Positions 4,268 to 36,065 of a stretch of DNA of 36,065 bases are shown one piece after another. Position 1 is the first letter of the stretch. The number at the start of each line of letters is the position of its first letter. The position numbers and the translations under genes were made by a program. The DNA is taken from IMG/VR virus record IMGVR_UViG_3300027833_000005, positions 1 through 36,065 of that record. One strand, 5' to 3'. Below the pieces are notes generated by a model, which saw only the letters and a program-made list of their open reading frames with translations, did not search any database and was not told the origin of the DNA. Source of the stretch: a virus.

Positions 4268-4317
4268 TTAGTCTCTCCGATCAGATATATCTGGTGCAAC
4301 CATACACCATGTTTTGC

Positions 4318-4938
4318 TTAATAGCTAGTGACCCGCATACGCAAACCAGAACCCGCAAATCGCGTGTCGTCAGACGCTTTTTGCAACGATTGCATTGCCG
4401 CCGAGTATAGAGCCGCCCAAGTCTGTGTTCGCTGGTCGTCTGCCAAGTATGGAGCCGACTGAACCAACGCGCCGTACAGGTAAACGTCAGGTGCGTCCTG
4501 TATCAACCAGTTGTATGTGTTTGTGTCTGTAAGGTCAGGTATTGACTGATAATACATGAGCTGCATTCCGTATTCGCCATCTGGCGTCGGAAAAACCTCG
4601 ATACTTTCGCCAACGTGAGAATAGAATTTAGGCGTGCCAGTGCCGTTGGAGTTGTCCTGACGGTACTTAATCATGTCGTCAAGGCTGGCCATCTCTAACG
4701 GTCTAGTTCCATCAGTTGTTAAGCTAAAACGCAAAGTTTCAAGCCAATCGGCAGGAACCTGCACGTATCTGCTGTCAAGCGTAGCGTCAACGCGGTTGAC
4801 CATCTTATAATGGCGCAAGTCGCGGTTTATGCCAGCTTCAGCCAACGAAATGAAGTCTGGAATGACCGCCGTAAGGTCATCGCGGTTAAGCCAGCTTGAA
4901 ATGCTGCTTTTTAACTCTGCGTAAGTTGTGATTGACAT
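4318..4938 (-). CDS. Head-tail adaptor / tail tubular protein A-like, 206 aa
   Basis: 206 residues with the order typical of podovirus adaptor proteins: an N-terminal helical YAELKSSISSWLNRDDLTAVIPDFISLAEAGINRDLR segment (read in parts), then DWLETLRFSL, GESIEVFPTP, YYQSIPDL and a helical C-terminus. In T7-like and P22-like phages the equivalent ring sits below the portal and connects it to the tail tube. The ATG at 4938 shares a base with the stop of the basic 48-residue protein (TAATG). Assignment rests on family resemblance and on late-operon context. Confidence 0.85.
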   Translation of the reverse strand: MSITTYAELKSSISSWLNRDDLTAVIPDFISLAEAGINRDLRHYKMVNRVDATLDSRYVQVPADWLETLRFSLTTDGTRPLEMASLDDMIKYRQDNSNGTGTPKFYSHVGESIEVFPTPDGEYGMQLMYYQSIPDLTDTNTYNWLIQDAPDVYLYGALVQSAPYLADDQRTQTWAALYSAAMQSLQKASDDTRFAGSGLRMRVTSY

Positions 4939-5084
4939 TACTTCTTGCCCTTCTTGGCAGTTTTCGCCGCAGCTTTAAACGCCGAAGCCTTGGGCGCACC
5001 CTTCGCGCCGGGCTTACGCATTTTCTCACCAGAGCCAGCGGCTATTCGCTTCTTCTTGGCGGCAATGTTGCTATAAAGCCCCAT
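4938..5084 (-). CDS. Small basic protein, 48 aa
   Basis: Encodes a 48-residue protein beginning MGLYSNIAAKKKRIAAGSGE and ending KTAAKGKK-like (AAAKTAKKGKK), with about one third Lys/Arg. Similar short Lys/Ala-rich proteins, often starting MGLY.NI..K, lie next to adaptor genes in many podovirus genomes. It may bind packaged DNA or the connector (inference). Its ATG (5084) overlaps the stop of the upstream cysteine-rich gene and its stop overlaps the adaptor start, so the four genes from 6456 to 4318 form a coupled chain. Confidence 0.8.
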   Translation of the reverse strand: MGLYSNIAAKKKRIAAGSGEKMRKPGAKGAPKASAFKAAAKTAKKGKK

Positions 5085-5176: not shown

Positions 5177-6456
5177 TGGAGTAATCCTTGTTGTTGGGTT
5201 GGCTGTGTTGGCGAAGGCGAGATAATACCTTGCGATTGCGAGCCTTGGGCCATTGCTTGCTCTACATCCATTGTGGAGACACCCAGCATAGCTGCCGCGC
5301 CTGCGATACCGTACTTTTTCACAATGCTAATTAGCTTGTCATCAAACACAACAAAGTTTTGCGTAGCCGCGTCGGTCCCGCGCGAGCCAGCATCTAAGTA
5401 TTTTATGCCGGGGATGCCTTCAGCCTTCAGATAGTTAGATAATTCAGCAGAGGGGTTTTCAGCGCCACCTTGAAGTTTCTTACCCCCGATGTCCAACATC
5501 AAATCCTTGCCAGTATTCGTTTTATGGGGCAGTAATGGCAATATTGACTGACCCGTCAGTGCCTCATAGTCCGAAATGTATTTGGCAGCCTTTCCTGTCT
5601 GGCTACTCAATGAAGCATCATAATCAAGAAAGTCATCTGGGTTTGCGTCGATATTAACCTCGTACAGACTACCTGCGTTAAAGTTTCCTGTGCGCTTGTA
5701 TTCCTCCAACTGGGCTATCTTATCTCCTTGGATTTGAAGCTGCATGTTAAAGTTGCGCTCCGCACCCTTGAATGCACCAGCTTTATTGCGCTCAAGTAGA
5801 CCGTTTAACTTTTGTTGTGTCTCAAATATGGCGCGATCAACGTCACCACCCACGGCCTTAAGTGTGCGCTCTGCGCCTGCCCTGCCAAAACCTGACAATT
5901 CATCTCGATACTTTTTGGCCACATCCTCTGCCTCTGCAAAGTAAAGCCCGTGCCCGTAAGCCTGCGCACCCTCACCTGTGCCGATTGCGTCCATGCTGAA
6001 CTCGTCAAAATCATGCGGACTGCCGTGATAGGCTTTAATGCCTTGGGAAGTCTCACCAGCAGGCCGTAACCGCACGTTACCGCCGACAGTGCCAAGCGCA
6101 GTCGGATCAAACTCAACACGGTCAGCCAAGTCAGCCACTTTGCGACCAGCAGCCATGATTGGACGTGCAAGCGCATCACCAGCGCCCGGCACAAGGCCAA
6201 TGGCCGCGCCAGTACCCAACAGACCCGCAGCCATAAGTTCACCGCGAGAAGCAGCATCGTATGCCTCGCCCAGCGCTAACGCATCACCAATGCCGGGAAT
6301 AAAGTCTTGGGACGCCTGCACAGCCTTAACACTAGATGGCATCTCGTCACGATTGCGAGCAAGAAGGCCATCTTGATATAAATCCGCATATCCGCCAGAC
6401 GGAGCCGCCGTGCGGTAATCCTCCTGCGAAAACAGCCTGTCCCAAATGCTAGCCAT
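5173..6456 (-). CDS. Putative ADP-ribosyltransferase (ART-PolyVal-like), 427 aa
   Basis: The middle and end of this 427-residue protein match the pattern of the ADP-ribosyltransferase domain of phage and plasmid polyvalent proteins. It has AYHGSPHDFDEFSM (H144), GTGEGAQAYGHGLYFAE (159-175, with the conserved Y) and, near the end, GIPGIKYLD (348-355) and NFVVFDDKLISI (367-378). Such enzymes transfer ADP-ribose from NAD to a target; no target can be read here. Residues 50-105 are Gly/Ala-rich and amphipathic or hydrophobic, and the last 45 are Gln/Ser/Pro-rich. It follows TerL directly, in the late operon, so the protein may be packaged and injected, or may act late on the host; both are inference. 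A catalytic role is likely but unproven. Confidence 0.75.
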   Translation of the reverse strand: MASIWDRLFSQEDYRTAAPSGGYADLYQDGLLARNRDEMPSSVKAVQASQDFIPGIGDALALGEAYDAASRGELMAAGLLGTGAAIGLVPGAGDALARPIMAAGRKVADLADRVEFDPTALGTVGGNVRLRPAGETSQGIKAYHGSPHDFDEFSMDAIGTGEGAQAYGHGLYFAEAEDVAKKYRDELSGFGRAGAERTLKAVGGDVDRAIFETQQKLNGLLERNKAGAFKGAERNFNMQLQIQGDKIAQLEEYKRTGNFNAGSLYEVNIDANPDDFLDYDASLSSQTGKAAKYISDYEALTGQSILPLLPHKTNTGKDLMLDIGGKKLQGGAENPSAELSNYLKAEGIPGIKYLDAGSRGTDAATQNFVVFDDKLISIVKKYGIAGAAAMLGVSTMDVEQAMAQGSQSQGIISPSPTQPTQQQGLLQ

Positions 6457-7856
6457 CAGGCCACCCCTTTTAAATTCCGTCGCAGTGGCTTACCCCACGT
6501 TGACGCCTTGCCGCCGAGTGCCGTCGCAGCGTCAGACGCCAGCGTAAGGCACACAGCGTCCGCCAAGTCAGGTGAAGCTAACCCACGCTTACGCATGTCA
6601 TCCTTACCTTCAGCCTTCATCTTGCCGCTGCTGACGAAACTATACCTGATTGACGTTAATTCTGCAATAAGCTGCTCGTTACGTGGCAACTTAGCTCCGC
6701 GCTGCTCCAGCCAGCCACGCATCTTAAACCACAACTCAGCCCGCAAGTTCGTATATGTATCCTTCATACTTGGCGATTCCGCCACGTTAATGCCACGCAC
6801 AGGCAGGCCAAGCTCACGCAAACGATCCACAACGCCACCACCCATGCCAATAACATCAACCATAATCTCACTAGGCCGTATACTCATCGGCAAGCCATCA
6901 TACTCAGCCTTCACCCGACCCACAGTCTGCATCAAATCCAAACCCTGCCAACTGTTAATCTCAGTTATCGTATTACCCTGACGCTTGGCCAACGCCGTCT
7001 TGTCCGACCCAAACCGTGCAACGTCCAAACCCCAGATGACCGTCGCGTGGTCGTCAGGCTCAATGTCGCGATGCACCGCAGCATCAACCAAATGAAACGG
7101 CACAATCGTGTCGTCATCCGCCAGCGGAAACTCACCAAGCACGCGAATCCGATAAGCATTGCTCTCCTCGCCATACCGCAACTTCATCTCGTCGATAAAA
7201 TCACGCGATACCAACGGCGACTTAATACACGACCAATGGTGGCACTTCCAACTGCCCGACAGCCGCGTCTGCGTCTCAAAGAACGTACCACTTGACCGCG
7301 TAGGGTTAGACGCCAGCAACGTAACCGCACTGTGACCAGACATCGAACCAGCCGCCGCCTCAAAGACCTGTTCAGGCACACCCGACGCCTCGTCCACAAC
7401 CAACATAACATTCGCAGAGTGAACACCAGCCAACGCCTCTGGCGTCTCAGCCCGACTCGTCCGAGCCGAAATAAAACCCTCCGACGGCGCAGCAATCAAC
7501 GACACCCGGTCATTCTTCACGTCAAGTATCGGACGCAACGCCTCCGGCAACTCATTGATCCAACGCTTCAACTCAGCAAACAACGCATCAAACAACTGGC
7601 CACTGGTCGGCGCAGTCACCACAACCTTGAACGGAAACCGCGTCATCGCAAACCAAAGCATGGCCCACGAGAACGTCGTAGACTTCCCCGTACCATGCCC
7701 AGAGCGAACACTAATCTTGCGCTCACCATTGGCAATATCAACAAGCAACGCCTGCTGATAATCAAACGGCTCAGCACCCAAAATTTCACGCACAAACGCA
7801 ACTGGGTCATCCCTATACGTCGAAACAAAGTCTACTAACGGGTTCTCTTCACTCAT
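6456..7856 (-). CDS. terL: Terminase large subunit
   Basis: 466 residues from the ATG at 7856, which overlaps the end of TerS by 8 bp; upstream in-frame codons lie inside TerS. Walker A is RSGHGTGKST (51-60), Walker B LVVDEAS (152-158), followed by a coupling motif LLASNPTR (180-187). The RNaseH-like nuclease begins GLDVARFGSD (D278), with a second acid in IMVDVIGMGGG and a last in SPDLADAV. This is the ATP-driven motor that packages DNA into the prohead and cuts it. It shares a base with the next gene's start at 6456. The packaging mode cannot be told from sequence alone. Confidence 0.96.
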   Translation of the reverse strand: MSEENPLVDFVSTYRDDPVAFVREILGAEPFDYQQALLVDIANGERKISVRSGHGTGKSTTFSWAMLWFAMTRFPFKVVVTAPTSGQLFDALFAELKRWINELPEALRPILDVKNDRVSLIAAPSEGFISARTSRAETPEALAGVHSANVMLVVDEASGVPEQVFEAAAGSMSGHSAVTLLASNPTRSSGTFFETQTRLSGSWKCHHWSCIKSPLVSRDFIDEMKLRYGEESNAYRIRVLGEFPLADDDTIVPFHLVDAAVHRDIEPDDHATVIWGLDVARFGSDKTALAKRQGNTITEINSWQGLDLMQTVGRVKAEYDGLPMSIRPSEIMVDVIGMGGGVVDRLRELGLPVRGINVAESPSMKDTYTNLRAELWFKMRGWLEQRGAKLPRNEQLIAELTSIRYSFVSSGKMKAEGKDDMRKRGLASPDLADAVCLTLASDAATALGGKASTWGKPLRRNLKGVA

Positions 7857-8346
7857 CGTCGCCACCCTCAATCTCAACAATCGTCGGCGTCACGTTGCGC
7901 ATCTGACGCAAAGCCTGCAAGTGCAAATCTCCAATATTAACATTAACGACATCACCCTTCGGCTGGAACCTCGCCGCATCGTACACACCCGTCATCCACT
8001 TGCGCACACCAATCTGCTCTCTGGCCGCCGCTACGTGCGTCGTCGTCAAGTCAGGCCCAACCAAGTTATCCGCAATCTCCAACGCCTCGTCAGCCATCGC
8101 GTCAGCACGAACCTTGCGGCCCTCCGCCAGCGCACGCTTAAAGTCATCATTCGCGTTTAACTTACGGCTGACAAACGAACGATCCAAACCCAACTCATTA
8201 GCCAGCGTCGCAACAGTCCCGCCGTCAGCAACCCACTGAAAAATAAAATCAGGCCCAGTGATGCTCTCATTCGCCTCACGCGCAGCTATCTTTGCCATCG
8301 CCTCTATAGACGTAAACAACGCCCGCTTCTTTGGTTGACCAGCCAT
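7849..8346 (-). CDS. terS: Terminase small subunit-like protein
   Basis: 165 residues. A helix-turn-helix (GTVATLANELGLDRSFVSRKLN, residues about 49-70) is followed by an Ala/Glu-rich helical segment (RALAEGRKVRADAMADEALEIADNL) and a C-terminal HVAAAREQIGVRKWMTGVYD segment. This layout is typical of small terminase subunits, which bind the packaging site and recruit TerL. It is the first gene of the late leftward unit, after more than 400 bp of non-coding DNA that holds candidate promoter and packaging elements. It overlaps terL by 8 bp. Confidence 0.9.
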   Translation of the reverse strand: MAGQPKKRALFTSIEAMAKIAAREANESITGPDFIFQWVADGGTVATLANELGLDRSFVSRKLNANDDFKRALAEGRKVRADAMADEALEIADNLVGPDLTTTHVAAAREQIGVRKWMTGVYDAARFQPKGDVVNVNIGDLHLQALRQMRNVTPTIVEIEGGDDE

Positions 8347-9704: not shown

Positions 9705-9808
9705 TGTATCCCCACACCATTTGACCTGTGCCTACGCTGCACTCTTTTTTTTTACATTAAGCCAACCAAGCAAACAACTGCTTGACTGCTCCTGACTGCG
9801 ACTGTGAC

Positions 9809-9835
9809 TTGTTCCCGCGAAGCGGTAAGGAACAA
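9809..9835. repeat. Inverted repeat / cruciform
   Basis: TTGTTCC (9809-9815) and GGAACAA (9829-9835) are exact reverse complements. A nested CGC-GAA-GCG mini-hairpin starts at 9816. No T-run follows, so it is not an intrinsic terminator. Confidence 0.5.
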
Positions 9836-9840
9836 TTCAC

Positions 9841-9860
9841 TGGCGCTGGCTGGCGCTGGC
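9841..9860. repeat. Tandem 10-bp duplication TGGCGCTGGC x2
   Basis: Two exact head-to-tail copies of TGGCGCTGGC. With the preceding CAC it forms CACTGGCGCT, nine of ten bases of the CACTGGCGCG arm found six times downstream, so it may be a degenerate seventh site. Confidence 0.6.
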
Positions 9861-9928
9861 TCGCAGTTTAAATAATAGCGTGTGACGGCTTTATGCCGAC
9901 ACTCATTTTAACGTAGTGCCTGAATGGG

Positions 9929-9955
9929 TTGACAGTTGCGCGCCAGTGGTATAAT
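9929..9955 (+). promoter_or_regulatory. Consensus promoter with operator arm inside its spacer
   Basis: TTGACA (9929-9934) and TATAAT (9950-9955) both match the sigma70 consensus fully. The spacer is 15 bp, shorter than the optimal 17, and contains the arm CGCGCCAGTG (9939-9948). A protein bound there would block polymerase, or could twist the short spacer into register. The promoter points right, against the surrounding leftward genes, and reads to the terminator at 10001-10024. Confidence 0.65.
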
Positions 9956-9989
9956 TTCCGGAGGAAATTCAGGTTTCAGCACTGGCGCG
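9939..9989. repeat. Inverted pair A of CGCGCCAGTG / CACTGGCGCG
   Basis: Arms at 9939-9948 and 9980-9989, separated by 31 bp. The left arm lies inside the promoter spacer and the right arm within the first 30 nt of the predicted transcript. Confidence 0.85.
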
Positions 9990-10024
9990 TTTGCCCACAC
10001 AGCTCCCATTCGGGGGCTTTTTTT
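9962..10024 (+). ncRNA. Putative short regulatory RNA of about 63 nt
   Basis: Delimited by the consensus promoter at 9929-9955 and the intrinsic terminator at 10001-10024. No start codon lies within it. It contains one CACTGGCGCG arm (9980-9989) and a purine-rich GGAGG close to its 5' end (9960-9964), which may instead lie just at the start site. The 5' end is estimated from the promoter. It would be antisense to the transcript that crosses this region from the right. Confidence 0.4.
10001..10024 (+). terminator. Intrinsic (rho-independent) terminator
   Basis: AGCTCCC (10001-10007), loop ATTC, GGGGGCT (10012-10018), giving a 7-bp GC-rich stem with one G-T pair. It runs into seven T (10018-10024). 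The T-run defines rightward polarity, opposite to the flanking genes. Confidence 0.8.
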
Positions 10025-10043
10025 ATGCCCTATTCAAACGCAA

Positions 10044-10077
10044 GCGCGCCAGTGAAATAACCCACTGGCGCGCTTTT
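10044..10077 (+). terminator. Perfect 12-bp hairpin, inverted pair B, possible terminator
   Basis: AGCGCGCCAGTG (10043-10054) pairs exactly with CACTGGCGCGCT (10063-10074) around an 8-nt AAATAACC loop, and TTTT follows on the plus strand. It is both the tightest of the three inverted pairs and a plausible second rightward terminator; as an operator it would present two abutting half-sites. Confidence 0.6.
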
Positions 10078-10078
10078 A

Positions 10079-10098
10079 TGTCAACGTATTCAGGCACT
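10079..10098 (-). promoter_or_regulatory. Inverted copy of the upstream promoter region
   Basis: TGTCAACGTATTCAGGCACT is the reverse complement of 9915-9934 at 18 of 20 positions. It carries TTGACA on the leftward strand (10084-10079), followed by a CGCGCCAGTG arm as in the rightward promoter. No good -10 lies at the right distance (best TATTTC or TTATTT), so leftward activity is uncertain. Confidence 0.5.
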
Positions 10099-10107
10099 TG
10101 CAAACTT

Positions 10108-10148
10108 GCGCGCCAGTGAACATTTTACCCGTTTCAGCACTGGCGCGC
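10108..10148. repeat. Inverted pair C of CGCGCCAGTG / CACTGGCGCG
   Basis: Arms GCGCGCCAGTG (10108-10118) and CACTGGCGCGC (10138-10148), with 19 bp between. The flank TTTCAG before the right arm is shared with pair A (9974-9979), so pairs A and C look like duplicates. Confidence 0.85.
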
Positions 10149-10168
10149 TTGATTGTTAGGCGGTTAGT

Positions 10169-10492
10169 TTACTCAATCACATCAAAGTCGTCATCGTCGC
10201 CATTTACCCGGCTTTGCAGTTCAGCGATAAACGCTGACATCGGTTCAATGGCTTTCTCGTATTTAAACTGCGCCTTGTTTTTGTGCGGCCAGAAGTTCAC
10301 CTCAACCTCACTGCCGTCGATCTCAATCATGCACTGTATGTGCCACGGGGACGCGTCATAGTTTGGCCAGTAGAAGTCCATATGCGTTTGTGCGTTGGCC
10401 CAGTCCGCCCAAGCCTGCACATTGTATTCCTGCTCCCAATCGCGCTTGGCGTAAAAGCAATCCGTCCAATCGCCTGTCCATTCAACTCTCAT
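10169..10492 (-). CDS. Hypothetical Trp-rich protein, 107 aa
   Basis: 107 residues, MRVEWTGDWTDCFYAKRDWE with eight Trp in the first 50 residues or so, then IQCMIEIDGSEVEVNFWPHKNKAQF and an acidic tail (VNGDDDDFDVIE). The ATG at 10492 is 1 nt beyond the stop of the PrimPol-helicase gene and preceded by GGGGAG, so it is co-translated with it. It acts presumably in the early or replication phase. No family recognised. Confidence 0.75.
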   Translation of the reverse strand: MRVEWTGDWTDCFYAKRDWEQEYNVQAWADWANAQTHMDFYWPNYDASPWHIQCMIEIDGSEVEVNFWPHKNKAQFKYEKAIEPMSAFIAELQSRVNGDDDDFDVIE

Positions 10493-10493
10493 C

Positions 10494-12809
10494 TCACTGC
10501 TCCCCTACTCTGCTGACCGACTGCACGCCCTTGCGCTCCTTGCGCTGGCTTGGACTGTGATACGTGATTTCCTCTAGCAAGCCCGTGTCCATCCACTCCT
10601 TGATGATGCCACGCGCCTGCACGGCTGACTTGTTGTCCGCAGCCTTCGGGAAGTTGAAGTTGGTGACGACTGTGCCAGCAAACCTTGTTCTGTCCTGTGG
10701 GCGTGATGAAAACATTTCACCCGTCTCTGGGCCAGCGTTGATAAGTGACAGCATACTGTTGACGATTGGCGTCGTCATGCCCTCCCACTTATCAGGCAGC
10801 TTATACTCGCAGCAAACGCCCACGCTCTCGCCATTGGCCAGCGTGACTGACACCATGCGACGGTAGACGCCTTTCTCTGCTGGCGGAGCCAAGTTTGCTT
10901 TGCCATTGTCCACGCGGAACAGGCCGATTACGTCATCTGGCTCCAGCCCCAGCCTGTTCAGTTCCTCATCTGTTAATTTATTTACAACTCTTGCTGACCT
11001 CGCTGCGCCGATGAGTGAACCTGCGCCACGCACTGAGTCAACCGTGGCTGCCTCGCCGTTTGATTTGCGGACGTGGTGAATCAAGTGGACCGCCGCGCCA
11101 GTTTCGCGTGCCAGCCTGCGCAGCATGGCCACGACGGCTTGAATGCTGCTGTTGGAGTTTTCGTTGACTGCGTGCGTACTGATAAACGGGTCAATGATGA
11201 CTGTGCCAATGGCATTGTCGTTGATCTTGTCGCGCATAAAGTTTAGCAGCGCGTCGTTCTGCACGATGCCCTCACGCCCCTCGGCGGCCAGCATGATTGA
11301 AATTGTGTCTTCGCCGTCCATGAACAGCTTTCCTGCGATTTCCTCATGCTGGATGCCGTAATGCTTCATGGCCGCTGCCAGTCGAATTTGCATTTCGGTC
11401 AGGTCATCCTCTAGGTTTACCAACCAAACAGATGTCGGCTCATGTACCTTTTCGCCCAGCAATGGCCGACCCGTCACGATTGCCAGTGCCTCGACCATAG
11501 CCAACGATGTCTTGCCGATACCACCTGCCGACGCCGTGACTGTCAGGAAACCACGAATATACGTGCTGCCATAAATCCAGCGGCGACGCGGCAATGTGGC
11601 CTCGTCAATGCGCGAGACAGGCGTTGGCCATTCCTGCGGCTTGTCGTCGTCGTCAATCATATCTGACTTCACCTCTGGCAGTGTGTGCTGTTCGTCTGGG
11701 ATATAGTCAAAGTCATCTAGGTCTTCACTGACGGGCGCGTCGCTGATTTGCTTGTTGACCTGTTCGAACGGACTTGGCTTTAACTCTTGCCCGTAAGTCC
11801 TTACGGCGCTTGTAAAATCACCAGAGTGGTCAAAGTAAACGTACAGGTCAAATGCGTCGCCCCAGCAGTAGTTTTCCTTGCCTGTACCAACGCCCGCAGC
11901 CACGTCGCTGCCCGACATGCTGACCCAGTAATCGCCAAAGCATTTCGTCGCGTGGCTGCCAGATGACTGCATTGGGCTTTTGTAGCTGTCGGCTACACCT
12001 TGGCGCTCATAGCCATTGGCGAGCAACATATCCTCGACAGTGTGACGCGCGTTGAACTCGTCAACTGGGTCAACATTGTCGGGATACTGCTCACGCTTTG
12101 CCAGCCTGTCTGCGGCGCGGCGCTCACGGTCAGCGGCAGCACGCTTGGCGGCCATCTCTTCGTTCTTGCGGCGGAACACAACTGTCGCATTGATCTGACC
12201 CGTCTTGGGTTGCAGAAAACCTTGGCCACGCTCCTTGCGGCTTTGGTAAAATAGCGGCTCACCGTCAAAACGCCTGTCCGCTGGCACGTTTGGCAGGTAA
12301 ATTGGCTGACCTGTGCGCGACAGCACATCATCGCACGTAATGTTGTGCTTAGTGCGTAGCTGCTCAAACAGTGCCAACTGGTAGTCAGCGTAATCAACGC
12401 CCAACAGCGGCTCGGCCAGCGGGATTAGCACGCGCCACTTCTTGTTGTCCTCAGTTGCGGAGCTGGATGAGTAGTAAAGCGCAGATGCGTTGCCTGTCAC
12501 GTCCTGGACGGCGTTATGAAGCGTGTCGAGCGACGGATTGCCCTCGTCAACGTCGATGGCCATCATGTGATACTCGCCGTTCAGACGTTGCGCCTCGTGG
12601 TTTCGGCCATCATGTTCGCGGTATGAGCTGCATATGACAAAACTAGCGGAGGTTTTGTCCAACGCTGTCGGTGCCTCAACAAGACGCCCAATTTCCTTGA
12701 GCGTGATGCCGTCGTACATCGCTGTGTTATTATGAACTTTTGTGTCCCGCGAGCCGTGCGCAAGTAGCATGGCTGGCTTGTCTGTCGGTGTGGTTTTTGT
12801 TATGCTCAT
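10494..12809 (-). CDS. Primase-polymerase / RepA-type helicase fusion
   Basis: 771 residues with two parts. Residues about 60-180 look like an archaeo-eukaryotic primase core: a DxD pair in MMAIDVDEG (D86, D88), YYSSSSAT (112-119) and KWRVLIPL (124-131). After a charged linker, residues about 395-650 form a RecA-like (AAA_25/RepA) ATPase, with Walker A ASAGGIGKTS (426-435), LVNLEDDL (463-470), Walker B TVIIDPF and VHLIHHVRK. It would unwind DNA and make primers at the phage origin. With no DNA polymerase gene seen, the host replicase presumably extends the primers. An AGGTC site precedes the ATG at 12809. Confidence 0.85.
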   Translation of the reverse strand: MSITKTTPTDKPAMLLAHGSRDTKVHNNTAMYDGITLKEIGRLVEAPTALDKTSASFVICSSYREHDGRNHEAQRLNGEYHMMAIDVDEGNPSLDTLHNAVQDVTGNASALYYSSSSATEDNKKWRVLIPLAEPLLGVDYADYQLALFEQLRTKHNITCDDVLSRTGQPIYLPNVPADRRFDGEPLFYQSRKERGQGFLQPKTGQINATVVFRRKNEEMAAKRAAADRERRAADRLAKREQYPDNVDPVDEFNARHTVEDMLLANGYERQGVADSYKSPMQSSGSHATKCFGDYWVSMSGSDVAAGVGTGKENYCWGDAFDLYVYFDHSGDFTSAVRTYGQELKPSPFEQVNKQISDAPVSEDLDDFDYIPDEQHTLPEVKSDMIDDDDKPQEWPTPVSRIDEATLPRRRWIYGSTYIRGFLTVTASAGGIGKTSLAMVEALAIVTGRPLLGEKVHEPTSVWLVNLEDDLTEMQIRLAAAMKHYGIQHEEIAGKLFMDGEDTISIMLAAEGREGIVQNDALLNFMRDKINDNAIGTVIIDPFISTHAVNENSNSSIQAVVAMLRRLARETGAAVHLIHHVRKSNGEAATVDSVRGAGSLIGAARSARVVNKLTDEELNRLGLEPDDVIGLFRVDNGKANLAPPAEKGVYRRMVSVTLANGESVGVCCEYKLPDKWEGMTTPIVNSMLSLINAGPETGEMFSSRPQDRTRFAGTVVTNFNFPKAADNKSAVQARGIIKEWMDTGLLEEITYHSPSQRKERKGVQSVSRVGEQ

Positions 12810-15561: not shown

Positions 15562-15599
15562 TTGAGTGTGAGCAGTGCAACGGAAAATACAAAGAATAA
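15558..15599 (+). CDS. 13-aa CxxC micro-ORF, possible zinc-finger remnant
   Basis: MIECEQCNGKYKE, starting within the stop of the hydrolase (ATGA) after AGGGAG. It closely resembles IIECIECGGTGE of the zinc protein at 16239-16412. It may be a leader or the stump of a duplicated copy. Translation is uncertain. Confidence 0.3.
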   Translation: MIECEQCNGKYKE

Positions 15600-15613
15600 T
15601 TGGGAGCATAATT

Positions 15614-16246
15614 ATGGAAAGCAACGATGACGACTTCAACCTAAAGATTACTGTTAGAAACGGCAGACTTCTCAGGGAAATACGCGCCAAATATGAGTCA
15701 TCCGCAGACATGGCTCGGAAGGGCAACCTGCAAGCCACCCAAGTTAGTGCGCTTGTCACAATGCGAGATAGGCCCATCAATAAGAATGGGCAGTGGCGAG
15801 ACATTGCCCTTGATGTAGCGGGTATGTTGAGCTGCGACCCAGAGTACTTGTGGCCTGAACACATGAAAGAGATCAAGCTAAAGCGGGCGACAGCAGAGAT
15901 GAGTGTAAGCTTGGACACCGTAACGCAGATTTCTAAATACGGCTCAATCGCAGACTTTGAGCGTGACGAAATAGTCGGATCATTAATGGATGGATTAACG
16001 CCAAGGGAAATAAAAGTGATTGGCATGATTTATCACTCTGGCGAAACACTGGATGCGATTGGAAAAGAGATTGGCGTAAGCAAAGAGCGCGTCCGTCAAA
16101 TTGAAGCCAAGGCTATACGAAAGATGCGGGCGCACGCACACAGGAAGAAGTACATATGCCGAAAGCCCCGCACGAGAACCGATTGGGCGCGGATCGGAGA
16201 TCGCGCTGTCCGAGCGGAAGTTCTGTGTGACGTTTTCGATGAATAG
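15614..16246 (+). CDS. HTH plus sigma-70 region 4 fusion regulator
   Basis: 210 residues from ATG 15614 (GGGAG upstream). Residues 12-82 (NGRLLREIRAKYESSADMAR, then VSALVTMRDRPINKNGQWRD, LDVAGMLSCDPEYLWPEHM) look like a lambda-repressor/XRE-type module. Residues 128-173 read LTPREIKVIGMIYHSGETLD then AIGKEIGVSKERVRQIEAKA and IRKMR, the classic sigma-70 region 4 helix-turn-helix that binds the -35 element and the core flap. Sigma region 2 is absent, so it cannot be a complete sigma factor. It may be an activator or appropriator steering host polymerase, for example to the late promoter. The C-terminal 35 residues are Arg-rich. Confidence 0.8.
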   Translation: MESNDDDFNLKITVRNGRLLREIRAKYESSADMARKGNLQATQVSALVTMRDRPINKNGQWRDIALDVAGMLSCDPEYLWPEHMKEIKLKRATAEMSVSLDTVTQISKYGSIADFERDEIVGSLMDGLTPREIKVIGMIYHSGETLDAIGKEIGVSKERVRQIEAKAIRKMRAHAHRKKYICRKPRTRTDWARIGDRAVRAEVLCDVFDE

Positions 16247-16412: not shown

Positions 16413-17050
16413 TGGTTAATATAATCGGAACAATCGGAGAATTTAGAAGTGTCAGACGCAACAATAATAACGCAGCGCCTACTGAGGTTGAATGCCGTGA
16501 TGCTGGAGCAGTCGGAGAAAGCGGACAGGCCGAACCTACGACAGCAACTGCAAGCCCAGCAAGCATTGATGGAGATGCTAGAACGCTCCCTCCAGCGGTA
16601 ACAGATGCGGAAAAGGCAGAAGAGAGGCTTGGTATAGCCATGCTGCGCGAGGCTCTGAAAAACCCGCTGATTCCAAACCCGCCCAAGTGGCGACAGGCGA
16701 CGGCGTTTGCCCAAGCCAAACGTGCGCAGCTTGCAAAGGAGCGGAGAGAGCGAATTAAGCTCTACGCAGAGGAAGGCATAATGACTGTGCCGCAAGTCGC
16801 ACAGATTGAGCGTGTAGCCCAAACCACTATTCGGGCTGATTGCCAAGTATTGGGCGTGCGGTTGCGGGTTAGTGAGGTCAAGGTGTCTCCGTATCAGGGT
16901 GAAATCTCAGCCCGACGCGACAGACTTGAGGAAATGGCACCAACGGGAATGACACGCGCTGCTGCGGCTGCTGAACTAGGCGTGTCGGAATCAACGGTTA
17001 GGCGAGACGTGTCGATTATGAGAATAAAATGGAAGGGAAAAGACCAATGA
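16412..17050 (+). CDS. Double helix-turn-helix DNA-binding protein, 212 aa
   Basis: 212 residues. A low-complexity N-terminal third (Thr/Ala/Pro-rich, residues 20-65) leads to a basic helical segment (KWRQATAFAQAKRAQLAKERRE) and two helix-turn-helix units: GIMTVPQVAQIERVAQTTIR (about 122-141) and MTRAAAAAELGVSESTVRRD (about 180-199). GAGGAGG precedes the ATG, which shares one base with the previous stop. A replication-initiation or transcription-control role is plausible. The tandem HTH arrangement suits direct repeats, but no target is known. Confidence 0.75.
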   Translation: MVNIIGTIGEFRSVRRNNNNAAPTEVECRDAGAVGESGQAEPTTATASPASIDGDARTLPPAVTDAEKAEERLGIAMLREALKNPLIPNPPKWRQATAFAQAKRAQLAKERRERIKLYAEEGIMTVPQVAQIERVAQTTIRADCQVLGVRLRVSEVKVSPYQGEISARRDRLEEMAPTGMTRAAAAAELGVSESTVRRDVSIMRIKWKGKDQ

Positions 17051-20685: not shown

Positions 20686-21642
20686 TTACGAAGTTGTGTT
20701 GTCGTAAATCGCGCCGTTGGCTTTTTCGTTCTTTGAGCAAAGAGCCAATTCGGTTGTGACCTGACGAGTAGTGTTGTCGCCATTTTTCGCAAGTGCAACA
20801 TTCTTGGTTCCACGCAATACTGCGCATTCCCACATGTTGTCCTGCAAAATAAACACGTCGCGTGAACGGTTCTCGCGGCTTGGCATAAACTCAACTGTAC
20901 CCCACGGAGTGACATACACCGCAAGAGATTTCACAACAGTCTCATCGCCAGCCTGTACGGAAGAACGCTGATTGTTGTTACCAGTGAAGCCCAGAGCTAC
21001 ATTCATTTGGAATGCAGACAAGTACACTGTATCTGGCTTGCCGCCTTCTTCCCAAATTGACTGCATAACGTCGTCAAACTTGGCCTGCGAGAATGCAGTT
21101 GGAGAAGTGTCGTCAGTACGAGCGTCTGTACCGTCGCCAGTTGGGTTTGCGCCTGAAGCACCAGACTGGAAGTTTACGTTAGTAATCAACCATGATGGTA
21201 CACCACCAGTTTTACGAGCAACTGAGTTGCTTCCAACTACGTTGCCTTGGTTTGCGAAAAGAGCTTTTTCGATGTCTAATTTTTGCGTTTTAGCGATGAG
21301 CAATGTTTGGTAGGCCAATTCCTTGGCACGACCCGCATTATCTACTGCTTCATCCGTATCGGAAACGACCACAGCATTTTTGAAAATCTGTGTGCGTGCG
21401 CCGAGACGTACAGTTGGAGTAACTGCATCGGCAGATGTTGCATCGCCTTCAACGTGAGCATTTACGGTAGAAGCACGCAATGCCTGAGTTTGCCACTCAA
21501 CCAGCGTGTTCTTCGCTTTGGTTTTGCTCGACTTAGAGTAGAACGGAGTGTCACTTGGGTCCACGTTGTAGATCATGTCACTTAGGTCTTCTCTGATGCC
21601 AACGGCGTCGTATGTGTCAAATAAATTTGTAGGTTGCGTCAT
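20686..21642 (-). CDS. Major capsid protein (SU10/DUF5309-like)
   Basis: 318 residues. LSDMIYNVDPSDTPFYSKSS near the start, then WQTQALRASTVNAHVEGD, then NAVVVSDTDEAVDNAGRAKE and KALFANQG fit the SU10-type (DUF5309-like) major capsid family, an HK97-fold protein. TVYLSAFQMNVALGFTG and ILQDNMWECAVLRGTKNVAL follow as in that family. It is directly downstream of the scaffold gene (28-bp gap) and followed by a hairpin, consistent with a heavily made product. It forms the icosahedral shell. Confidence 0.92.
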   Translation of the reverse strand: MTQPTNLFDTYDAVGIREDLSDMIYNVDPSDTPFYSKSSKTKAKNTLVEWQTQALRASTVNAHVEGDATSADAVTPTVRLGARTQIFKNAVVVSDTDEAVDNAGRAKELAYQTLLIAKTQKLDIEKALFANQGNVVGSNSVARKTGGVPSWLITNVNFQSGASGANPTGDGTDARTDDTSPTAFSQAKFDDVMQSIWEEGGKPDTVYLSAFQMNVALGFTGNNNQRSSVQAGDETVVKSLAVYVTPWGTVEFMPSRENRSRDVFILQDNMWECAVLRGTKNVALAKNGDNTTRQVTTELALCSKNEKANGAIYDNTTS

Positions 21643-22639: not shown

Positions 22640-22882
22640 CTACTTCCTTTGCTTGCGATCTAAAAATGTCTCTGCCGTCGTAGCGGCGTCGAGTTTCATT
22701 TCGATCTGGTTTAGCGCACAGATTATCCCGTGCGCCGCTTCGCGTGCCTCTACGTCAGAGGCAGCGCTGTCTGTGAAAACCGTTATCTGGTCATCACGAA
22801 CTTCTTGCATAAATGACAGAAACGAGGTGTCGGTTTTTAGCCGCCTCGCTTCGTCTGCTTTCATGCGTATTTCTGTTGTCAT
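22640..22882 (-). CDS. Small helical protein between portal and scaffold, 80 aa
   Basis: 80 residues. MTTEIRMKADEARRLKTDTS then FLSFMQEVRDDQITVFTDSA and IICALNQIEMKLDAATTAET form helical segments; the C-terminus is basic. Overlaps the portal stop by 4 bp. Comparable small genes sit at this position in many podoviruses and are thought to help prohead or connector assembly; no enzyme motif. Confidence 0.78.
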   Translation of the reverse strand: MTTEIRMKADEARRLKTDTSFLSFMQEVRDDQITVFTDSAASDVEAREAAHGIICALNQIEMKLDAATTAETFLDRKQRK

Positions 22883-25047
22883 TGCTGCGGTGTACCTTGT
22901 GCCATTCCACCAATCATACGAACTTTGTCCTGCTCGGCTTGAATTTTAGCCACATCAACGGAAGTGCCATACTGTCCGTAAATCTTAGCCGCATCAACAA
23001 GCAGGTCTTGCGCCATCTTATCACGTTGTAGGTCGTCATTTGAAGCCGCTTTTTGTGCGTCTAATTGCAATTTAGCCATGTCAGACTGCATCTTGGCCTG
23101 CGCCTTAATTTGCTCAGCCTGCAAGAACGCTGCGTTTGGATCGGCTGGCTGGCCTTGCGCCTCTTGAGCTTGCTGTTGCATTTGCAGCATTTGCATCTCA
23201 ATCTCTGGCGTAATCGGCGCAAAATAGCGGTCAGCGTTGCGTATGCCAGAAACGGCCAACTGATCGGCCAACGTGTTGCGAATGTTGGTCATGCTAACCA
23301 AGCCATTCTGCGGGCCGTATGTCTGGTAAACCATAGTCTGCATTTGCAGCGCTTGGTTTAGAGCTATCATCTTTTCCTCTTCACGGCCAGTGCCGAGACC
23401 GACGTTGATACTCACGTCATATGAGGAATCCCAAACCCGTGGGTCAACTGGCACAAATGAACCGTTCATCCGCACCATTTGCTCTTCGTCTACGTTCTTG
23501 CTGTAGAGGCGAAGCATGATGCCGAACAAGTCACGCATACCATCGGCCAGATTGCGAACCATAACTTCGACTTGGCCCGCAGCAGCCTGTACGGTGGCCG
23601 TCACAGCCGCCTTAGTTGTTGACTGCATAGCATCTGGGTCAAGGCCCATAGAGGCTCTGGATACGCCTGTTTTAGTCTCTACAAGGCTGTCTAAATAAGT
23701 CAGCGCGCTAAGTGTTTGGCCAGCGACAAAGGGAACCGTCAAATCTTGCACAGCGCCCGGCTGGCGCATACGCACGATTGCCCCGATTTCGTTATTTAAC
23801 ACATCGTCAATGTTACATTGTGATTCGACGATGGCCAGCCTTGGGTTGTTCGTCATCGCCACGTTGTCCAATATGCCACGCAAAACAGATGTGGCTGCGT
23901 CTTGGTCATCCATGACAATTTCGGCAAGCGATTGGCCATAGAACGTGTGAGGCTCTGGGTCGATCTCAAATTTTGCAAATGGAATTTCATCGCATGGCTC
24001 ATGGTCAAGCATTTCGTATGACGTGCCACCGCATGTAATCTTGTGCAAAACAGGAATGCCAGTGCCGTCTACGTCAATTCGCATATAGGCTTCCGTCACA
24101 GCGACATTGCGCATAGATGGGTCTTGCTCATCTTCGTCGGTTGTATCTGTTCCGTAACCTTGGCGCTCAAACACCTCGGCCTGCGTAATGTCAGAGCCAT
24201 CCTCAAAGCTGTCCAAGTTTAAAACAACTTCGGGGTCGTAACCCATAGCAATCAAATCGCCAGCGCGCATGTCCGTGCGGTGAGCCACAACGTAGGCGTC
24301 GGCAAGGCTTCTAGCGTCACGGTCAATAAAGAACTCTTCGGGTGGCACGCTTTCAATGCAAAGCTCACCCTTGTCCTTTTGACGGCTAATCTTTGTGCTG
24401 TGGACAGGCATTTCAATTTCCATGCCCATTTCGTCAATCTCAACAGACATTTCCATGCTGTGTTCCAACACGGTCACGTCATCGTCTTCAACGAGATATG
24501 TGTACTCATCATCTGACAGGTCTGTGAATGTGTAAATCTCAGCCTCTGGGTAGGTCATCCAATAGGCTTTCACGATGCCTTGCTTTTTAACCAGTGCGTC
24601 TTGGAATGCGTCATTCATCACGCGGTACCCGTTTAAGCGGGTAAACTCATGGTGCATAAACTCAGTGGCTTGCTCTGCCATTGCCACGTCTTCTGGCCCG
24701 TTTGGCGTGTACTCAACAGGCTTGGCTGTGCTGAGAAAAATGCGCATCAAGCTTGGCTTTACCGCACGTACAGTATCCCGTACCTTTGTGGCCACAACTT
24801 TGCTGCGTCCTTCCTCGTGGCCAAGGTCAACCTCGCCATCGTAGTAGCGCTGCGCCCGAATGCGGCCCCGGCTAATTTCGCCTTCAATGAAGTCCACAGC
24901 GTCGGAAATTGCGTCCTGCACGATGCTCTCAATTTCACGGTCAGACTTCGGCTTTAACTTTGTGTCAGCCACTGCCTCGTCGTCGATCATCTCGACTTCG
25001 CCGCCAGAAACCTCAAGCATTTCTTCGATCATATCTTCGGGTTCCAT
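22879..25047 (-). CDS. Portal protein (P22-like)
   Basis: 722 residues. An acidic N-terminus (about 1-30) leads to QDAISDAVDFIEGEISRGRI and EEGRSKVVATKVRDTVRAVK (about 77-96), then LMRIFLSTAKPVEYTPNGPE and ALVKKQGIVKAYWM. These are hallmarks of the large P22/podovirus portal family. Conserved parts include LCIESVPPEEFFIDRDARSL and EIPFAKFEIDPEPHTFYGQS. The C-terminus is a Gln/Ala-rich helical barrel segment (MLQMQQQAQEAQGQPADPNA). It forms the dodecameric vertex through which DNA enters and leaves. Confidence 0.92.
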   Translation of the reverse strand: MEPEDMIEEMLEVSGGEVEMIDDEAVADTKLKPKSDREIESIVQDAISDAVDFIEGEISRGRIRAQRYYDGEVDLGHEEGRSKVVATKVRDTVRAVKPSLMRIFLSTAKPVEYTPNGPEDVAMAEQATEFMHHEFTRLNGYRVMNDAFQDALVKKQGIVKAYWMTYPEAEIYTFTDLSDDEYTYLVEDDDVTVLEHSMEMSVEIDEMGMEIEMPVHSTKISRQKDKGELCIESVPPEEFFIDRDARSLADAYVVAHRTDMRAGDLIAMGYDPEVVLNLDSFEDGSDITQAEVFERQGYGTDTTDEDEQDPSMRNVAVTEAYMRIDVDGTGIPVLHKITCGGTSYEMLDHEPCDEIPFAKFEIDPEPHTFYGQSLAEIVMDDQDAATSVLRGILDNVAMTNNPRLAIVESQCNIDDVLNNEIGAIVRMRQPGAVQDLTVPFVAGQTLSALTYLDSLVETKTGVSRASMGLDPDAMQSTTKAAVTATVQAAAGQVEVMVRNLADGMRDLFGIMLRLYSKNVDEEQMVRMNGSFVPVDPRVWDSSYDVSINVGLGTGREEEKMIALNQALQMQTMVYQTYGPQNGLVSMTNIRNTLADQLAVSGIRNADRYFAPITPEIEMQMLQMQQQAQEAQGQPADPNAAFLQAEQIKAQAKMQSDMAKLQLDAQKAASNDDLQRDKMAQDLLVDAAKIYGQYGTSVDVAKIQAEQDKVRMIGGMAQGTPQQ

Positions 25048-33843: not shown

Positions 33844-35301
33844 TTATGTTTTTACTACTAAACTTGTAGCAGATATTGCGGTCCCTGCAAAGACACTTGG
33901 GTCGGCAGCGGTCTCTCCTATCGTCCCGTCTGTCTGAACGTAATAACTCTGCCCTGCCGTGAGGCCAGACTGGTTTGTGCTGAGTGAGCCGATGATGTCT
34001 ACCGTGGCGCTGCTACCGTCTGCGTATGTGCCGCCAGTAGAGATGCCGATGTAGTTCTCGGAGGTGAGGTTTGTGGATGTGTAGGCGGTCTGCCTAACAA
34101 TTGCAGTACCTTTATTTGTGCTTGCAACTGGAGCATATGAAACAACAGAAACCTTTTCATTCATGTCGTAAGCCATTGATGTATAATTACTAGCACCAGT
34201 GCTATCCAAAATAGTATCAGAGCCAAAACTTACAGTAGTTCCACTAATCTCTCCCTCTTGCAGAGTTAAATAGCTTGAGTTTCCAGCGTCTGAATAGACA
34301 ATAACCACTTTGTTTGCGGCAGAGTTATAAACAATTCTTAAATAATCTGATTGATTGGCATTAAAAACAGTTTTTGACCCAAACGAAATAGATGTTCCAG
34401 AAACAGTTCCGACTATGGCTGAACCTTGATAACCACCACTGTAACTGTTGTACGCTATAACTACTTTATTGCTGACACTATCATAAGCAGGTATGTTGTA
34501 AATATTAGTGGCGCTGCTATCGTATACGACCGCACTGCCAAACGAAATAGATGTTCCACTTACTGTTCCTACTACAGCTGTGCCTTTTTGAGAGTTACCA
34601 TTGTCATTATAGGCAACCACTACCTTATTATTTAAGCTATCAAAAGTAATGCCGACATGATCTGATCTTGCACTCTCGAACACAACAGGTGAGCCAAAGC
34701 TAATAGATGTTCCAGAGACAGTGCCAACTACTGCCGTACCATAATTTGAGTTACCAGCATCTCTGTATGCAATTACAACTTTGTTGTTAGAACTGTCAAA
34801 TGTAGCCGCTGTATAAATTGTGCCTCCCGCTTCAAAAACCACTGGCGTTCCGAAGCTAATAGATGTTCCAGAAACATTCCCAACTACTGCCGTCCCCTTC
34901 CCAGCGGTGGCATTGTCATAGTAAGCAATAACAACCTTGTTTTCGTTGCTATCAAATGTTGCCGTTACATAATAAATAGACGCTGAGTTAAAAACTACTG
35001 GGGAACCGAAACTAATAGATGTCCCTGAGACAGTGCCGACTACTGCTGTGCCGTGTCCAGAATTACCCCCATCACTATAAGCAAATACAACTTTATTACT
35101 ACTGCTATCATAGGCAGCAGCCTGCCAAGTTGTTTGACCTGTTTCGTAAACAGTTTCAGACCCAATAGCCGAGCTTACAGAGGTTGAAGAAACAACACTC
35201 ACAGTACCGTCAGCATTCACAACAACAGGCTTACCATTCGGCAGAGTACCAGAAGCCTTGGCCCTATGCGTACCCTCTTTTAACTCTGGGATAATTCTCA
35301 T
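33844..35301 (-). CDS. Seven-repeat tail protein C (putative beta-propeller)
   Basis: 485 residues; third member of the family at 815-35305 (A) and 1088-2524 (B). Head MRIIPELKEGTHRAKASGTL, then NGKPVVVNADGTVSVV, seven units of about 50 residues (for example SPVVFNSASIYYVTATFDSN, then ENKVVIAYYD), with linkers such as AVVGTVSGTSISFG. The tail module ends QSYYVQTDGTIGETAADPSV, FAGTAISATSLVVKT. Seven units again suggest a seven-bladed propeller. Units 2-5 are more alike here than in B, suggesting recent internal repeat exchange. Probable tail fibre or adhesin. Confidence 0.88.
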   Translation of the reverse strand: MRIIPELKEGTHRAKASGTLPNGKPVVVNADGTVSVVSSTSVSSAIGSETVYETGQTTWQAAAYDSSSNKVVFAYSDGGNSGHGTAVVGTVSGTSISFGSPVVFNSASIYYVTATFDSNENKVVIAYYDNATAGKGTAVVGNVSGTSISFGTPVVFEAGGTIYTAATFDSSNNKVVIAYRDAGNSNYGTAVVGTVSGTSISFGSPVVFESARSDHVGITFDSLNNKVVVAYNDNGNSQKGTAVVGTVSGTSISFGSAVVYDSSATNIYNIPAYDSVSNKVVIAYNSYSGGYQGSAIVGTVSGTSISFGSKTVFNANQSDYLRIVYNSAANKVVIVYSDAGNSSYLTLQEGEISGTTVSFGSDTILDSTGASNYTSMAYDMNEKVSVVSYAPVASTNKGTAIVRQTAYTSTNLTSENYIGISTGGTYADGSSATVDIIGSLSTNQSGLTAGQSYYVQTDGTIGETAADPSVFAGTAISATSLVVKT

Positions 35302-35304
35302 GGT

Positions 35305-36065
35305 CTAGCCTTTCACGATCATCTTGGTTGCCGATATGGCTGTGCCAGCAAAGACACTTGGGTCTGCTGGCGTGGTGCCGAGTGTTCCGTCTGTCTGGAC
35401 GTAGTAGCTCTGACCCGCAGTCAAACCTGATTGCCTGTCGTTTATCGCACCTTGCACATCAATGGTGGCCCCAGCAGTGTCAGGGTAGCCGTTGCTGGAT
35501 AGGCCGATGTAGTTCTCTGAGGTGAGGTTGGGTATCGAACCCGGCGGCTGCACCACAATAGATGTGCCGTAACTAGAGTTTCCAGCGTCTTGATATGCTA
35601 TGACAACTTTATTAGAGTTACTATCAAAGGAAGATGTAATGTAATTAGTTGCATCTCCCTCAAATACCGTTGGACTCGTAAAACTTACACTTGTTCCGCT
35701 AACCGTGCCTGTTACAAAAGTGCCTTTATTGGAGTTGCTTTCATCTCTGTAGGAAACAACAACTGTTCCAGTATTGCTATCAAAAGTATTAGAAATTGAG
35801 GTAATGGTAGCAGACGCATAAGACACAGCAGTTCCGAAGCTGATACTGGTTCCAGACACGGTGCCGACGATAGCTTTACCATACCATCCTCCAGAGTAGA
35901 TACGCCAAGCTACAACAATTTTGTTGTTAATGCTGTCAAATGCGGTTGAAGTCCATTCAGCATAAATATCTGTATCAAAAGTAGTTATTGATCCAAATGA
36001 TATGGATGTACCAGACACAGTGCCAACGATAGATTTCCCGTAGTTTCCAACCTGAGCAGATATAA
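35305..36065 (-). CDS. Seven-repeat tail protein A, C-terminal part (start at 815)
   Basis: C-terminal part of the protein that starts at 815; bases 35939-36065 duplicate 1-127. It carries the last repeats, then a tail module shared with both paralogues: NLTSENYIGLSSNG, QSGLTAGQSYYVQTDGTLG, DPSVFAGTAISATKMIVKG. This module recurs at the C-terminus of all three copies and may serve trimerisation or attachment (inference). The TAG stop at 35305-35307 is 3 nt before the ATG of the next paralogue at 35301, so the genes are tightly co-transcribed. Total length 482 residues, against 478 and 485 for the paralogues. Confidence 0.85.
   Translation of the reverse strand, partial: ISAQVGNYGKSIVGTVSGTSISFGSITTFDTDIYAEWTSTAFDSINNKIVVAWRIYSGGWYGKAIVGTVSGTSISFGTAVSYASATITSISNTFDSNTGTVVVSYRDESNSNKGTFVTGTVSGTSVSFTSPTVFEGDATNYITSSFDSNSNKVVIAYQDAGNSSYGTSIVVQPPGSIPNLTSENYIGLSSNGYPDTAGATIDVQGAINDRQSGLTAGQSYYVQTDGTLGTTPADPSVFAGTAISATKMIVKG
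35939..36065. repeat. Terminal direct repeat, right copy (assembly circle overlap)
   Basis: Exact second copy of bases 1-127. Joining the two copies restores one uninterrupted leftward reading frame of 483 codons including the stop, from 815 through 1/35938 to 35305. This supports circular closure. Confidence 0.95.

Follow-up and report, generated by a model that had tools for sequence, protein, structure and literature searches.

A promoter within a probable iteron-type replication origin beside a phage primase-helicase gene

Why would a phage direct a consensus promoter rightward into DNA that holds no gene, in a region whose genes all run left? The question arises from virus record IMGVR_UViG_3300027833_000005, the 36,065 bases of which were analyzed as a whole and are here called the window. 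On balance, positions 9915 to 10155 are best read as a replication origin bound by the neighboring helicase, with the promoter being convergent, repressible by the initiator, and similar in its working to pO of phage lambda.

Genomic setting

The promoter and a cluster of repeats lie in a gap at 9705-10168. This gap is flanked by a left-running replication operon (encoding a RusA-like or PDDEXK nuclease, an exonuclease VIII-like protein, a single-strand binding protein, a primase-helicase, and a 107-aa protein) and by a left-running gene for a 197-aa protein, after which the terminase genes follow. Structural and packaging genes were located as follows.

6456-7880: large terminase
7849-8346: small terminase
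20686-21642: major head protein
22879-25047: portal

The portal shared 47% identity with its counterpart in Octadecabacter Antarctic DB virus 2, and the helicase-primase was 37 to 38% identical to those of Roseobacter phages of the CRP-8xx series. Among host genomes, the helicase had only distant relatives, most of them in Alphaproteobacteria. Searches of a phage collection at the DNA level, and with the neighboring 197-aa and 107-aa proteins, gave no match, nor did Rfam. The paper on CRP-822-type phages does not mention an origin, iterons, or repeats. Elsewhere in the window, the minus strand encodes proteins made of VVGTVSGTSISFG-like repeat units (1088-2524, 33844-35301, and 35305-36018), apparently related copies of which occupy both ends of the record.

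A conserved promoter with a repeat in its spacer

9929-9955, plus strand: sigma-70-type promoter, TTGACA-15-TATAAT, with iteron 1 in the spacer (chance expectation, 0.02)
10079-10098, minus strand: inverted copy of the upstream element and TTGACA at 9915-9934

The promoter consists of TTGACA (9929-9934), a 15-bp spacer (9935-9949) with CGCGCCAGTG at 9939-9948, and TATAAT (9950-9955). It is the sole perfect TTGACA/TATAAT match with a spacer of 15 to 19 bp in the window, where 0.02 would be expected by chance, and the rightward consensus promoter of the earlier note was thus confirmed, as was its isolation among left-running genes. The spacer holds one of six copies of CGCGCCAGTG; the protein-binding site proposed there is probable. 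That note had seen one copy of this "operator"; the five further copies, a palindrome at the start site, the inverted copy of the promoter half, and a second hairpin had been missed.

In the marine phages examined that have the window type of helicase, the promoter was present in every case; it ran antisense to the helicase, and its TTGACA was invariant. The -35 element and the promoter position were conserved across five sequence classes while the linker varied. The -10 element was TATAAT, TAAAAT, or TAAATT, and the spacer was 15 bp in the window and in one relative (L007) and 17 bp in the remaining marine relatives. The promoter was absent from 31 other origins examined, 11 with the same helicase type and 20 with the other type. 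Judged by this distribution, it is a branch-specific addition of the marine subgroup and not a requirement of the origin type.

A spacer of 15 bp is suboptimal for sigma-70. This, together with the confinement to one subgroup, could indicate a fortuitous or weak promoter without function, leaving the iterons alone to matter. Such a reading is very doubtful given the low chance expectation and the retention of the -35 element and promoter position in five sequence classes despite the changing linker. The short spacer had also been taken as a sign of activation by a bound protein; relatives keep the spacer site with a 17-bp spacer, which speaks against this. A MerR-type activated promoter, dependent on spacer distortion, was likewise rejected: promoters of that type have an over-long spacer of 19 to 20 bp, and those found here were 15 bp (window) and 17 bp (relatives).

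The inverted copy at 10079-10098 supplies a weak leftward promoter-like sequence (TTGACA-17-GTTATT, 10084-10056) that was not conserved in two relatives (L008 and L012) and was not adopted. In another relative (L025), a near-perfect inverted repeat flanked by A and T runs, with the look of a bidirectional terminator, immediately precedes the conserved promoter on its left (about 255 to 295 of the segment), shortly upstream of the -35 element.

A predicted short noncoding RNA

9953-9969: palindrome AATTTCC-GGA-GGAAATT, centered on the expected transcription start
9962-10022, plus strand: predicted short noncoding RNA of about 61 to 63 nt, from promoter and terminator positions
10001-10024, plus strand: intrinsic-terminator-like hairpin with a tail of seven T, conserved in the window subclade only

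The terminator comprises a stem at 10001-10018 and seven T at 10018-10024. Terminator-like patterns were not rarer in shuffled sequences (8 found in a 6-kb region versus 6.3 expected); what makes the terminator credible is that it follows the promoter and is conserved in close relatives, not that hairpins are rare. Together, promoter and terminator make possible a noncoding RNA of about 61 to 63 nt, in line with the terminated RNA of roughly 63 nt proposed earlier. A second hairpin with a T tail was found at 10042-10077, in which iterons 3 and 4 pair perfectly over 13 bp; it is a possible second terminator.

The single open frame in the RNA (starting at TTG 9991 or CTG 9982) reads through the terminator, and its nonsynonymous changes outnumber synonymous ones. 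A small-protein gene was rejected, as the frame crosses the terminator, is mostly altered by amino acid-changing substitutions, and is not a conserved coding frame. No coding-like ORF was found in the RNA. The fold of the transcript was no better than that of shuffled sequences (z = -1.4). The whole region folded as a single strand was far better than shuffles (z = -6.5), as is expected from its inverted repeats.

Two roles suggested for the RNA were not supported. As an antisense RNA, it would need a complementary gene; within the window, no gene matched it beyond 11 bases, matches of 12 bases and longer were to another iteron, and the single target outside the iterons was an 11-base match at 16703. 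As a decoy, it would offer one single-stranded copy of a repeat that looks like a double-stranded DNA site.

The start-site palindrome lies between the iterons of the first pair. It is kept in relatives, where its arms change in step (AAATCTC-GGTA-GAGATTT and AATTTTCC-GTA-GGAAAATT). Its left arm is upstream of the start site, so that it cannot be a hairpin of the RNA and is instead a DNA-level element. Small palindromes between repeats (CCCTATAGGG, CCCTTAGGG, CCTATAGG, and AACCCTTTAGGGTT) were also seen in the origin regions of six other loci with helicases of both types (L096, L051, L121, L018, L043, and L044), at a place matching that of the start-site palindrome.

Iterons near the primase-helicase gene

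9915-10155: proposed replication origin
9938-9948, plus strand: iteron 1 (GCGCGCCAGTG)
9980-9989, minus strand: iteron 2 (CGCGCCAGTG)
10044-10054, plus strand: iteron 3
10063-10073, minus strand: iteron 4
10108-10118, plus strand: iteron 5
10138-10148, minus strand: iteron 6
10494-12809, minus strand: primase-helicase (RepA-type AAA_25 ATPase), proposed initiator
10494-11003, minus strand: C-terminal domain of the primase-helicase (residues about 603 to 771), proposed iteron-binding domain, which tracks repeat class in relatives

All six exact CGCGCCAGTG sites of the window fall within about 210 bp (9938-10148), starting at 9939, 9980 (minus), 10045, 10063 (minus), 10109, and 10138 (minus). 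They form three inverted pairs with centers 41, 18, and 29 bp apart. With one mismatch allowed, 14 sites were found in the window versus 3.9 expected. GC skew tracks gene direction and thus gives no independent origin signal.

The helicase has a primase-like N terminus with primase-type family matches, fused to an ATPase domain with a detectable relation to RSF1010 RepA. Its C-terminal domain matched no family or solved structure indicating DNA binding. The repeats cluster near the primase-helicase gene and match its C-terminal domain, as in SaPI Rep and SCCmec Cch2, and for this reason the region was read as an origin; with good confidence, the promoter may be placed in an iteron-type replication origin. 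The link to replication in the earlier note is likewise supported.

Repeat class tracks the helicase C-terminal domain

Relatives of the 197-aa gene had repeat clusters in the same gap, of differing sequence classes. In phages with CGCGCCAGTG- or GCGTCACTG-type repeats, the helicase was similar to that of the window over residues 3 to 770, whereas in phages with other repeats (AAATCGTA, CTATAAAA, and ATATACAGAT) the similarity extended only to about residue 602. This split held even at equal closeness of the terminase and 197-aa genes (L027 versus L025). The two C-terminal domain types showed no detectable relationship when their profiles were compared. In one relative (L022), the 107-aa gene and the repeat cluster have traded places (4302-5006, against 9705-10492 of the window): in L022 the repeats lie between the helicase and the 107-aa gene, whereas those of the window are on the far side of that gene.

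When the window-type C-terminal domain was used as the query, 80 loci were obtained. At least four repeats of the window family within 320 bp were present in 97 of 101 window-type loci, which are not independent (many overlap, are near-identical, or come from the same contig), and in 0 of 11 loci with the other domain, none of which had more than two; shuffled sequences had at most two. Three of the four exceptions end at the locus edge, and in the fourth (L120) the copies have diverged. Linkage accounts for part of the association, because the repeats usually lie next to the end of the helicase gene. At three loci (L062, L099, and L108), no repeats lie beside the helicase, and the matched iterons come only after other sequence, more than 1 kb downstream; neighborhood linkage therefore cannot explain the whole association. 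At the usual place of the repeats, right after the helicase, two of these loci have a hairpin-like inverted repeat (GGACATTTGGCCC...GGGCCAGATGTCC; L062, 3100-3145; L099, 2750-2795).

Three contigs with the C-terminal motif GQYKDRKG carry TCCGCC instead of TGCGCC in the repeat, and the other family members listed have QRK or QRR in the motif. The coincidence, which represents at least one evolutionary event, makes the QR-to-QY position a candidate specificity residue. The contigs concerned are L147, L148, and L149 (the contigs of L087, L097, and one more). Helicases of the other type, including those of isolates CRP-811, 821, 823, and 831, were followed by repeats of very different sequence, with an 8-mer occurring as many as 12 times within 330 bp; a minority of more distant phages of this type had no repeated words after the helicase. 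Together, these patterns suggest that the C-terminal domain of the window helicase probably recognizes the CGCGCCAGTG iterons.

The plus strand at 15575-16246, in a right-running gene block, encodes a 223-aa protein with sigma-70 region 4 in its C-terminal half (PF04545, E = 2.7e-16), possibly a phage transcription regulator. The repeats could then be operators through which such a regulator switches the replication and terminase operons, with no origin present; they do overlap the promoter and lie between two operons, and a regulator of this kind is encoded nearby. This explanation is nevertheless unlikely, as the repeat class tracks the helicase C-terminal domain, no exact CGCGCCAGTG site lies near the regulator genes, and other origins examined have repeats without such a promoter.

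Comparison with known replication systems

The C-terminal domain of SaPI Rep and SCCmec Cch2 recognizes iterons directly downstream of the helicase gene (PMC7581432). The window shares the placement of iterons near the initiator helicase gene and the match between repeat class and C-terminal domain, but its iteron sequences differ from those of SaPI and SCCmec. Those helicases are of the DUF927 or D5/Primase_Cterm type, whereas that of the window combines a RepA-type AAA_25 ATPase with a primase-like N terminus; its relation to RSF1010 RepA thus sets it in a different helicase family. Satellite phage P4 alpha and the pRN1 replication protein are also primase-helicases with a C-terminal DNA-binding domain; P4 alpha, whose primase is of the TOPRIM type, binds origin repeats, and in pRN1 the gene is followed closely by the origin (PMC4234260). 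Their arrangement resembles that of the window, but the primase and helicase families are different. The oriV of RSF1010, to whose RepA the window helicase domain is related, likewise has iterons, which are bound by a separate protein, RepC (PMC4234260), in place of the fused iteron-binding domain proposed here.

In lambda, transcription from pR falls when pO is active and replication suffers when pO is lost, which led to the suggestion that excess transcription hinders the initiation complex (PMC3985674). The window shares with pO and its product OOP a short, terminated RNA, predicted here from a sigma-70 promoter and a nearby terminator, that runs counter to the main transcription next to an iteron origin. 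Whereas OOP is complementary to cII, the window RNA is antisense to no gene (matches of at most 11 bases); the window promoter also differs from pO in its position within the iteron array, one iteron of which occupies its spacer. By analogy of layout and proposed function, the unit may work like pO without being an OOP homologue.

Proposed role of the convergent promoter

From the promoter, the terminator, the iterons, their conservation, and the tracking by the helicase domain, all read at the sequence level, we infer binding, origin activity, transcription, and an effect of that transcription. The C-terminal domain of the primase-helicase would bind the six CGCGCCAGTG iterons in their three inverted pairs, and the bound protein, encoded just upstream on the left-running strand, would open the DNA and prime synthesis. 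From one end of the origin, the promoter would fire rightward against the left-running transcription that leaves the replication operon, and the RNA would stop about 60 nt on, short of the second and third iteron pairs. With iteron 1 occupying the spacer, binding of the initiator and of RNA polymerase should be mutually exclusive; the promoter would therefore be active early, restraining transcription through the iterons, and be shut off as the initiator accumulates.

The RNA of about 60 nt, or an RNA-DNA hybrid, might instead prime DNA synthesis at the same origin or melt it. The promoter is at the edge of the iteron array, transcription is expected to start on the central palindrome, and the RNA would end inside the origin, all of which would fit, but this role is improbable: the helicase itself has primase-type matches, and the equivalent idea for lambda, where OOP RNA was once proposed as a primer, has been deemed unlikely (PMC3985674). 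The restriction of the promoter to one branch, with 31 origins lacking it, argues against an obligatory primer. The leading-strand primer suggested in the earlier note is thus improbable, with the promoter missing from those origins and a predicted primase-helicase encoded alongside. Like the OOP RNA of lambda, the short RNA would more probably restrain traffic locally at the origin than serve as a primer.

These results point to the probable site of a replication origin in phages for which metagenomes are the main source and offer a rule for finding others, namely, to look for repeats downstream of a RepA-type primase-helicase. The iteron part could be studied in culture with isolates CRP-811, 821, 823, and 831, and the natural series of domain-iteron pairs provides a route to a recognition code. 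Tentatively, the iteron "code" of the origin may evolve rapidly in this widespread aquatic phage group along with a swappable primase-helicase C-terminal domain, and in one marine branch RNA polymerase and initiator may vie for a shared stretch of 27 bp, the onset of replication being timed by a short origin transcript. Whether phages and satellites share replication or block that of one another could depend on origins of this kind.
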